Positions 9,417-20,822 of a stretch of 40,349 bases of DNA are shown here, piece by piece (position 1 is the stretch's first letter; every line of letters begins with the position of its first letter). The DNA comes from a virus. The stretch lies in IMG/VR virus record IMGVR_UViG_3300027749_000010, positions 1-40,349 of that record. One strand, written 5' to 3'. The notes under the pieces are model-generated. The model saw nothing but the letters and a program-made list of their open reading frames with translations. It was not told where the DNA came from and made no database searches. The position numbers and the translations under genes were made by a program.

Positions 9417-9686
9417 TTAACATTTCCAATTCCTTAACGATGCTTTAGCTCTCTCAGCAGGACCCTTGGCGTTCCTGACCACACCTTCCATTCTCGCGCA
9501 AAAAGAAGCCTTACGCCCCTTATCAGCCTTAGTCTTAGGAGATGGAGCAGGAGCCTTTAGATTGCTACCGTTCTTCTTGTTGTACTCAGCACGACCCTTA
9601 GCAGTCATGCCAGCACCCTTAGAAGTAGGGTTATAGGTCTTACCCTTGCCAGTAGTCTTATGTGCAATAGGCTTATCGTGCTTCAT
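9417..9686 (-). CDS. Small basic conserved phage protein (DUF6321-like)
   Basis: 89 aa, very basic. Key features are GAGMTAKGRAEYNKKNGSNLK, then KGRKASFCARMEGV and a C-terminal ASLRNWKC. This KGRR-SFCARM-G ... LR-W-C pattern is shared by a large phage family of unknown function (DUF6321-like). The ATG overlaps the preceding stop (ATGA). Two conserved cysteines and high charge suggest nucleic-acid contact, unproven. Confidence 0.8.
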   Translation of the reverse strand: MKHDKPIAHKTTGKGKTYNPTSKGAGMTAKGRAEYNKKNGSNLKAPAPSPKTKADKGRKASFCARMEGVVRNAKGPAERAKASLRNWKC

Positions 9687-9841
9687 TTCTTAGCCGTCTT
9701 CTTAGAGTTAGCAAATGCTTTAGCAGTAGGAGCGCCCTTAGAGCCTGGCGTTCTCATCTTCTCTACAGGTTTACCAGCAGCCTTCTCACGTTTGATACGT
9801 TCTTGCTTTTTATGGATATTGGCATACAAACCAGGCTTCAT
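9683..9841 (-). CDS. Small basic protein, first gene of the late operon
   Basis: 52 aa: MKPGLYANIHKKQERIK, then EKMRTPGSKGAPTAKAF and a Lys-rich end. This MKPGLYANI ... MR-PG-KGAP-A-AF pattern is recurrent in phages and usually lies next to the DUF6321-like gene, as here. Start codon at 9841 sits behind AAAGGATGTAT. It is the first gene after the late promoter and the structured leader. Function unknown. Confidence 0.8.
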   Translation of the reverse strand: MKPGLYANIHKKQERIKREKAAGKPVEKMRTPGSKGAPTAKAFANSKKTAKK

Positions 9842-9859: not shown

Positions 9860-10021
9860 GTTGGTAACCGCCACATAAAGCAGTGTTTCCGTCTTTCTGT
9901 ATTTGCACAACATGAAAGGTAAGGCGCTAACCCTTACTCGGCTACCAACACGGCTGGAGACTGATCCGTCAGGATGGTTCACAAGTACGGCTGACGGCCC
10001 GCCTCGGTTTACCCAATCTCC
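9860..10021 (-). ncRNA. Candidate two-domain structured leader RNA of the late operon
   Basis: On the minus strand two domains can be folded by eye. Domain A is closed by 10015-10021 pairing with 9956-9962 (7 bp) and contains a perfect 7-bp stem CCGTCAG/CTGACGG (9991-9997 with 9966-9972). Domain B is closed by an 11-12 bp helix (9939-9950 with 9859-9870) and holds GTAAGG/CCTTAC (9932-9937 with 9919-9924) and CTTTC/GAAAG (9914-9918 with 9893-9897). Both closing helices contain one G-U wobble in the minus-strand RNA that would be an A-C mismatch in the plus strand, which supports transcription from the minus strand. The RNA ends 18 bases before the first start codon and leaves its ribosome site free. 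Antitermination, attenuation or ligand sensing are all possible. Confidence 0.45.
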
Positions 10022-10039
10022 ATGCGTCTTGGTGTGTGG

Positions 10040-10069
10040 ATTATATATATCTTATTTGAGTATTGTCGC
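10040..10069 (-). promoter_or_regulatory. Candidate sigma70 promoter of the late operon
   Basis: Minus strand: -10 hexamer TATAAT (perfect) at 10045-10040 and -35 GCGACA (4 of 6 matches) at 10069-10064, 18-bp spacer. It faces the late genes and would start transcription near 10033, giving a leader of about 190 nt before the first gene. It is the only good match found in front of the late operon. The weak -35 suggests a need for an activator or for early-protein help. Confidence 0.5.
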
Positions 10070-10546
10070 TTGGTTAAGAAAAGTTATGTGAAAAATTTGG
10101 GAATGGGTGAGTGGGCCCCCCTCCCTCCGTCACCTTCCAGTGCTACCCCTCCCGAATCTATGGCTGGGGGGGGTATGTAGATGCGAATGCTTCTCGTTTG
10201 CTATTGACCAATGGGTTAGTAACTAGATGCGAATGGTTTGCATTTACTAATGACCAGCGGGTCAGTAATGTTTGCCACAAGGGTGCCCTATCATTTCAAG
10301 GGTTTGTATATCCGTGCGGTTAACGCGTTGCATTGTGTTTGCTTATACGTGCATTGGAGACAATGGCACGGGGGTTTTGTTTATTTACGCGGGTTTCCAG
10401 CGGGTTTAGTAAACCGCTTGCATGCACCCAATAGCTGCAATTGCCCTTTGTATTTCCCCTTATATGTTTGCACCCAATGGCTTAGGGTTTTGGGTTTTCT
10501 TTTTGTGCGCGTTTTGTAACTTGATTATGCGAATTTAATCAAGTAT
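10070..10546. other. Non-coding block left of the plus-strand module
   Basis: No credible gene. The plus strand is G/T rich, with a run of eight G at about 10166-10173, many GGGTTT words and a degenerate tandem repeat listed separately. Reading frames that stay open have no good ribosome site and odd composition. Together with the DnaA boxes just after it, the block looks like a replication or partition-type control region. Confidence 0.5.
10180..10271. repeat. Two-copy degenerate 46-bp tandem repeat
   Basis: Copies at 10180-10225 and 10226-10271 agree at 34 of 46 positions by direct comparison. Both begin GATGCGAATG and share TTGACCA/ATGACCA and GGGTYAGTAA. The exact adjacency suggests an old duplication or a protein-binding iteron pair; the shared GTTAGTAA/GTCAGTAA word also resembles the iterons at 13270-13548. 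Confidence 0.6.
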
Positions 10547-20634: not shown

Positions 20635-20822
20635 AAATCACTCTAGAGTTTGACGACCTAGAAGATGCAAAAAGAGCCATCCATGCTGCGGAAGCGTGGA
20701 TAGCCCTATCTGAAATTAGCGAGTTATTAAGGTCTCAGCGTAAACACGATGTCCCTATGGATCAGACCTTGGCCTGTATCCAAGAAATTGTGCAAGACGC
20801 TATGCCCTTGATTTACTCCTGA
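20631..20822 (+). CDS. Small helical early protein
   Basis: 63 aa from the ATG at 20631 behind CGGAGGACAA. LEFDDLEDAKRAIHAAEAW, then ALSEISELLRSQRKHD and a final helix. Typical of small phage proteins of this part of early operons. Its stop overlaps the end of the opposite-strand acidic gene by 10 bp. Confidence 0.65.
   Translation: MKITLEFDDLEDAKRAIHAAEAWIALSEISELLRSQRKHDVPMDQTLACIQEIVQDAMPLIYS

Follow-up and report, generated by a model that had tools for sequence, protein, structure and literature searches.

The late operon of a freshwater virus of bacteria begins with a structured, untranslated RNA built from two modules, and relatives of both were found at phage operon starts in well over 100 other phage sequences, in which they correspond to no catalogued RNA family. 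The window, that is, the whole stretch of 40,349 nucleotides that was analysed (IMG/VR record IMGVR_UViG_3300027749_000010), carries one copy of each module: domain 1, a constant helical clamp around a variable interior, and domain 2, a four-helix RNA which, judging from its homologues, is a new RNA family, designated R1. We tentatively favour a role for this leader as a modular, cis-acting nascent RNA that would aid the host polymerase across a long operon, in the manner of the put RNA of phage HK022 and without being a member of that class.

The preliminary description of this region had noticed a TATAAT −10 element followed by a folded, two-domain leader on the minus strand; both were confirmed, the former by a consensus scan and the latter by folding, and the observation proved to reach further than first noted (Table 1). 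What had escaped attention was that one UUGG strand is common to both domains, and that both domains recur elsewhere as independent modules. On the 5′ side of the late promoter, positions 10069-10149 hold TTTTTCACATAACTTTTCTTAACC and a G/C-rich stretch, also present in MW202484, the nearest named relative of the window, and the T-rich part of this block is repeated in the relatives L002 and L003; the block is a possible activator site. Farther on, ATTCGCATCTA-like motifs are repeated at positions 10160-10270, in the non-coding region between the early and late transcription units, and L002 has similar repeats. Could these be origin or regulator sites?

Table 1. Positions in the window of the late promoter, the modules of the leader and the ends of the late operon.
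Feature	Position	Strand	Basis
−35-like GCGACA, late promoter	10064-10069	-	consensus scan, 18-nt spacer; weak match
−10 TATAAT	10040-10045	-	consensus scan; predicted start ~10033
CCAA, 5′ extension of domain 1, partner UUGG 9948-9945	10029-10032	-	folding energy gain 7.5 kcal/mol
Domain 1, constant clamp ACGCAUGGAGAUUG ... CAGUCUCCAGCCGU, variable interior	9950-10027	-	clamp matches, compensatory changes
GUUGG, common to domain 1 extension and domain 2 closing helix	9945-9949	-	both partners conserved
Domain 2, four-helix RNA, new R1 family	9860-9949	-	R1 model, covariation
P2 hairpin GUAAGG-GUUAGCG-CCUUAC, domain 2	9919-9937	-	flanking pairs complementary in homologues
P4 hairpin CAC-UGCUUUAU-GUG, domain 2	9872-9885	-	CAC/GUG alternates with CUC/GAG
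First late gene, 52 aa, phrog_16028 family, start codon at 9841	9683-9841	-	
Intrinsic terminator at the far end of the late operon	20676-20704	-	only one found in late direction

Folded as a whole, the leader reached −59.9 kcal/mol (z −2.47), and none of 200 shuffles was as low. The minus strand at positions 10032-9860 folded as two domains, with z values of −2.65 for domain 1 with its extension and −3.12 for domain 2, versus −1.89 for the plus-strand copy of the latter; deprived of the CCAA/UUGG extension, domain 1 scored −1.48 on the minus strand versus −0.23 for its plus-strand copy. Since the interiors alone barely exceeded shuffled sequences (mean z −0.85 and −0.36), thermodynamics alone could not settle whether the RNA is structured, and it is the comparison of homologous sequences that we regard as decisive. 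It had been argued from the window that the non-Watson-Crick pairs of the closing helices are G-U on the minus strand and A-C on the other. The argument holds among homologues: in the clamps of 131 homologous domain 1 units, G-U cells outnumbered A-C cells by 198 to 14, the majority of the former being one constant U-G pair and one position that is G-U or A-U, which identifies the minus strand as the transcribed strand. The domain 2 homologues likewise had G-U/U-G far more often than A-C/C-A.

In the window, ACG/CGU, a 2x2 internal loop (CA/GC) and a helix of 9 bp (UGGAGAUUG/CAGUCUCCA), one of them a U-G pair, together close domain 1. Well over 100 contigs had the clamp, ACGCAUGGRGAUUG/CAGUCUCCAGCCGU, and compensatory changes occurred among them. 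A pattern search of IMG/VR with the clamp half AGTCTCCAGCCGTGTTGG matched at least 119 viral contigs, and the partner half ACGCATGGRGATT, which was absent from the search pattern, lay upstream in 116 of them as counted in the list of matches, mostly 37-98 nt away. Compensatory variants of the clamp included UGAGGAUU/AGUCCUCA, UGAAGAUU/AGUCUUCA, UGCUGAUU/AGUCAGCA, UGGGGUCU/AGUCCCCA and UGGGAACU/AGUUCCCA. An IMG/VR pattern in which the first clamp pair was left free returned no matches, so this pair rarely varies there while the rest is kept. The YYAA before ACG was kept in most of the 131 units, and the interior found in the window also occurs in L121, where the differences are compensatory and the fold is kept. 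Bacterial genomes yielded seven exact matches to AGTCTCCAGCCGTGTTGG, with the partner half ACGCATGGRGATT nearby only in L181, the one match of the seven that was judged real.

An 11-bp helix, one of its pairs being G-U, closes domain 2 of the window. A search of IMG/VR with GGGTTAGCGCC-N(42-72)-ACTGCTTTATG, a pattern that fixed the two anchors only and left all else free, matched 83 contigs. The four pairs adjoining the first anchor (P2) were complementary in 65, 64, 62 and 59 of 65 sequences, versus 29-44 when partners were swapped, and each occurred as five or six pair types. The closing helix was free in sequence and still complementary, 56 of the 65 scoring at least 14 versus 2 among letter-shuffled controls. 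In a 33-sequence alignment, 98.9% of cells were paired and double changes were seen in 77 cells versus 19 ± 4.7 in shuffles; shifting the partner by one to three columns abolished the signal. The P4 stem CAC/GUG alternates with CUC/GAG among homologues, and the P4 loop may kiss the P2 loop through AGC/GCU, for which a related cassette has GGC/GCC in two of its sequences. Covariation in homologous leaders was thus found for both domains, and together with the absence of an Rfam match it supports the earlier view of a structured RNA of no known class.

The R1 model scored the copy in the window, which is part of the seed, at 76.5 bits (E 2.1e-20), and R1 was found as a single copy per phage record or as two copies near each other. 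The cultured Acidovorax phage ACF1, reached through blastn with a homologous R1 RNA, has R1 with a score of 45.8 bits. There the RNA closes a ~700-nt non-coding stretch, headed by tRNA-Ala, that separates terminase from portal genes. As the members were collected by pattern, anchor conservation is overstated; it is not solely an artefact of the pattern, since ACF1 and the copy in a Burkholderiales genome have altered anchor letters. R1 occurred in one of 399 Burkholderiales genomes and the domain 1 pattern in none of the 399, so the leader RNA would rarely be found in chromosomes. The loci are mostly metagenomic fragments, and host clues are limited to ACF1 and the Burkholderiales hints. None of the weak similarity matches in other phages matched R1.

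At the gathering threshold, Rfam 15 gave no match in the window, GOLLD, ROOL and riboswitches included, and no credible weak match appeared at a permissive threshold; ARAGORN found no tRNA in the window, and tRNA (RF00005) was therefore rejected for its domain 2. In a blastn comparison with cultured phages, the leader itself had chance matches only. Integron attC sites have the consensus boxes RYYYAAC/GTTRRRY, and the junction here is mostly GTTGGT[GA], which breaks the GTTRRRY box; attC, cos site and riboswitch were weighed and judged less likely. The P4 loop UGCUUUAU resembles boxA (UGCUCUUUA) and is two bases short of it. Neither of two Q families, PF03589 and PF06530, was found in 37 records, the HK022 control giving PF03589, and no single-subunit phage RNA polymerase was found in the same number of records by a search that had no positive control.

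The two modules alternate along arrays, domain 1 preceding domain 2, with one to four pairs per array; among close relatives of the window, one has two pairs and another has domain 2 alone, and many R1 RNAs lack domain 1. The most unusual feature of these arrays is that constant clamps hold swapped contents. The 124 domain 1 units contain 66 interior families; 16 of the 21 multi-member domain 1 families were joined to at least two domain 2 families, and 17 of the 20 domain 2 families to at least two domain 1 families, counts that depend on the 75% similarity cut by which families were defined. The domain 2 cassette type of the window was also found within a domain 1 clamp (L257). A recurring array module is the CCGGAAAGACGG hairpin (L060, L067, L125, L140, L270 and L271), which adjoins a tRNA-Met in L271. 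In Bordetella phage PHB04 (L274), positions 1213-2550 hold phage tRNA-Met, -Asn and -Pro and a predicted tmRNA, and a module of this phage, ACCATCATCGAAGCGG...CCGCTTCGATGATGGT, resembles one in the R1-bearing array of L270.

In the 34 R1 loci without domain 1, −10 hexamers clustered 0-11 nt before the closing helix (21 and 20 loci in the two nearest 6-nt bins, and one to six per bin beyond 11 nt), and in the 90 arrays that begin with domain 1 they clustered 6-17 nt before the YYAA, all promoters and transcription starts being predictions. Stand-alone R1 copies are 5′ leaders ~40 nt before the first gene and, depending on the phage, head either late (terminase) or early replication operons. By our reading of the translations, the genes that follow R1 are terminase and portal genes in many phages and a replication operon in nine loci. 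In the region examined, a terminase-like gene cluster was present in 70 of 107 array loci, mostly downstream, and was co-directional with the array in 68 of the 70. No intrinsic terminator was found within the 29-kb late operon of the window, the sole one standing at its far end. Strong terminators, about tenfold above background, lie ~13 nt upstream of 11 arrays, and a few arrays are followed by one. An intrinsic terminator separates the array from the first gene in L054, L151, L105, L167, L060 and L267, with no room for a promoter between the two in the first four; the arrays of L060 and ACF1 end in a terminator.

From this structure, strand, modularity, conservation and placement at predicted starts, we infer a folding order, a target and an effect for the leader. 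Transcribed first from the late promoter, it would fold while leaving the RNA polymerase. Domain 1 would form before domain 2, and UUGG would probably stay paired with the CCAA of its extension until the 3′ strand of domain 2 emerges and captures it, an order of co-transcriptional folding that we read into the shared GUUGG. The finished fold would owe its specificity to the internal loop of domain 1 and to loops P2 and P4 of domain 2, and would most likely engage the host transcription machinery, raising the processivity of elongation over the long operon in the face of pausing, Rho or terminators.

Action of the nascent leader on host transcription is favoured by the placement at operon starts, the conserved loops and the lack of a known antiterminator. 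Since the RNA heads both late and early replication operons, the common factor would be a long phage operon read by the host polymerase, and the single terminator at the far end makes anti-pausing or Rho protection the likelier form of this idea. Minus-strand covariation in both domains and the terminators between array and first gene in several loci also argue for polymerase control. However, the terminator at the end of the late operon would have to survive antitermination, the terminator just before the array in 11 loci is in the wrong order for protection, the hypervariable interiors and tRNA-like cassettes are left unexplained, and the R1 model found nothing in HK022 at E ≤ 10. A broader reading, possible and in our view rather doubtful, is that of a new kind of phage genetic element, the RNA cassette array. 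Here a pair of constant helical clamps would enclose exchangeable folded RNAs, some tRNA-like, that would be traded among phages by recombination and expressed at operon heads for a fast-evolving RNA-based function, either polymerase control or counter-defence.

Simple 5′-end protection remains close, somewhat unlikely as we rate it. A helix at +1 would shield the late mRNA from 5′-end-dependent decay (pyrophosphohydrolase, RNase E), with extra modules adding stability, and it accords with this that, in modules that stand alone or come first, the closing helix begins at the predicted +1, and that this helix retains its pairing although its sequence is free to vary. However, a plain hairpin would suffice, and tandem arrays, as well as arrays after a terminator, would be unexplained. 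Moreover, conservation is strong in loops P2 and P4 and in the internal loop of domain 1, in part through pattern choice, but also in ACF1 and L270, which were found without the exact pattern.

It is unlikely that the array is instead a non-coding RNA of the tRNA-island type, processed into RNAs (tRNA mimics, decoys or complexes) acting in trans, for which the two clamps would be standard frames holding exchangeable cassettes. Domain 2 cassettes are tRNA-like by Rfam in L074, L077, L101 and L116, and true tRNAs adjoin the arrays of L165, MW202484 and ACF1, which keeps a trans-acting, GOLLD/ROOL-like reading open; the free exchange of cassettes and the terminator-ended arrays also point this way. 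In MW202484 (L178, 185-260, minus strand), the tRNA is a tRNA-Asn directly 5′ of a divergent late-leader domain 1. Arrays nevertheless precede phage operons with which they are co-directional, and stand-alone R1 copies are ordinary 5′ leaders.

A conformational switch, also suggested by the preliminary description, appears improbable. The GUUGG between the domains pairs either with the upstream YYAA (CCAA in the window) or with the CCAAC that ends domain 2, the two being mutually exclusive; each partner is kept in most units and each state gives a stable fold, and the choice between them would control late gene expression. This part of the suggestion gained support, but the window showed no expression platform, be it a terminator or a pairing of the leader that covers the ribosome site, domain 1 is missing from many R1 RNAs, and the strand exchange may merely order the folding. 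Very improbable is a DNA-level element, a terminase (cos/pac) or cassette-recombination site whose pairing reflects hairpin DNA: the array directly precedes terminase genes in many phages and cassettes recombine at the clamps, which would fit, but one strand keeps G-U and avoids A-C, as expected of RNA, and the element sits at predicted transcription starts and before replication genes.

The modules thus probably help host machinery to make or keep long phage messages, and they add a widespread, strongly conserved RNA family to phages, in which few leader RNAs have known roles. RNA-only control of the host polymerase has so far meant put, and the alignment, the covariance model and a cultured phage (ACF1) could be used to test whether such control is common. 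That cassettes are exchanged within constant clamps is unusual and points to strong selection for novelty in untranslated RNA.

In phage lambda, the late leader (pR′-6S RNA-tR′) is ~190 nt long and lies at the early/late boundary before the late genes. The leader of the window has the same length and location; it differs in having no terminator, and lambda acts through the Q protein and a DNA site, whereas Q families were not found here. The put RNA of HK022 binds the zinc-binding domain of the polymerase β′ subunit and counteracts termination and pausing. It has ~70 nt and two stem-loops, lies at early promoters and acts as nascent RNA (PMC9378689); putL starts at the transcription start and no phage protein is needed (PMC9378689). 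The put-like role proposed earlier for the leader agrees with its position, since this compact RNA likewise stands at or close to where a long phage operon begins, behind a predicted promoter, and with the R1 domain that related phages carry at an early replication operon, as put stands at early promoters. It was weakened by the terminator-free interior of the 29-kb operon, and membership in put RNA was rejected, since HK022 has no R1 match and size and fold differ: the 90 nt of domain 2 contain four helices, domain 1 adds 78 nt, and the family has a clamp domain, exchangeable interiors and tandem arrays. GOLLD and ROOL are structured phage RNAs of unknown function, often near tRNA islands and with variable linker regions (PMC12286853), whereas the leader family comprises short modules with swapped interiors, located at operon starts and without an Rfam match. 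Finally, some domain 2 cassettes fold as tRNAs with the acceptor GUUGGUG/CACCAAC, whereas most, including that of the window, are not tRNA-like.
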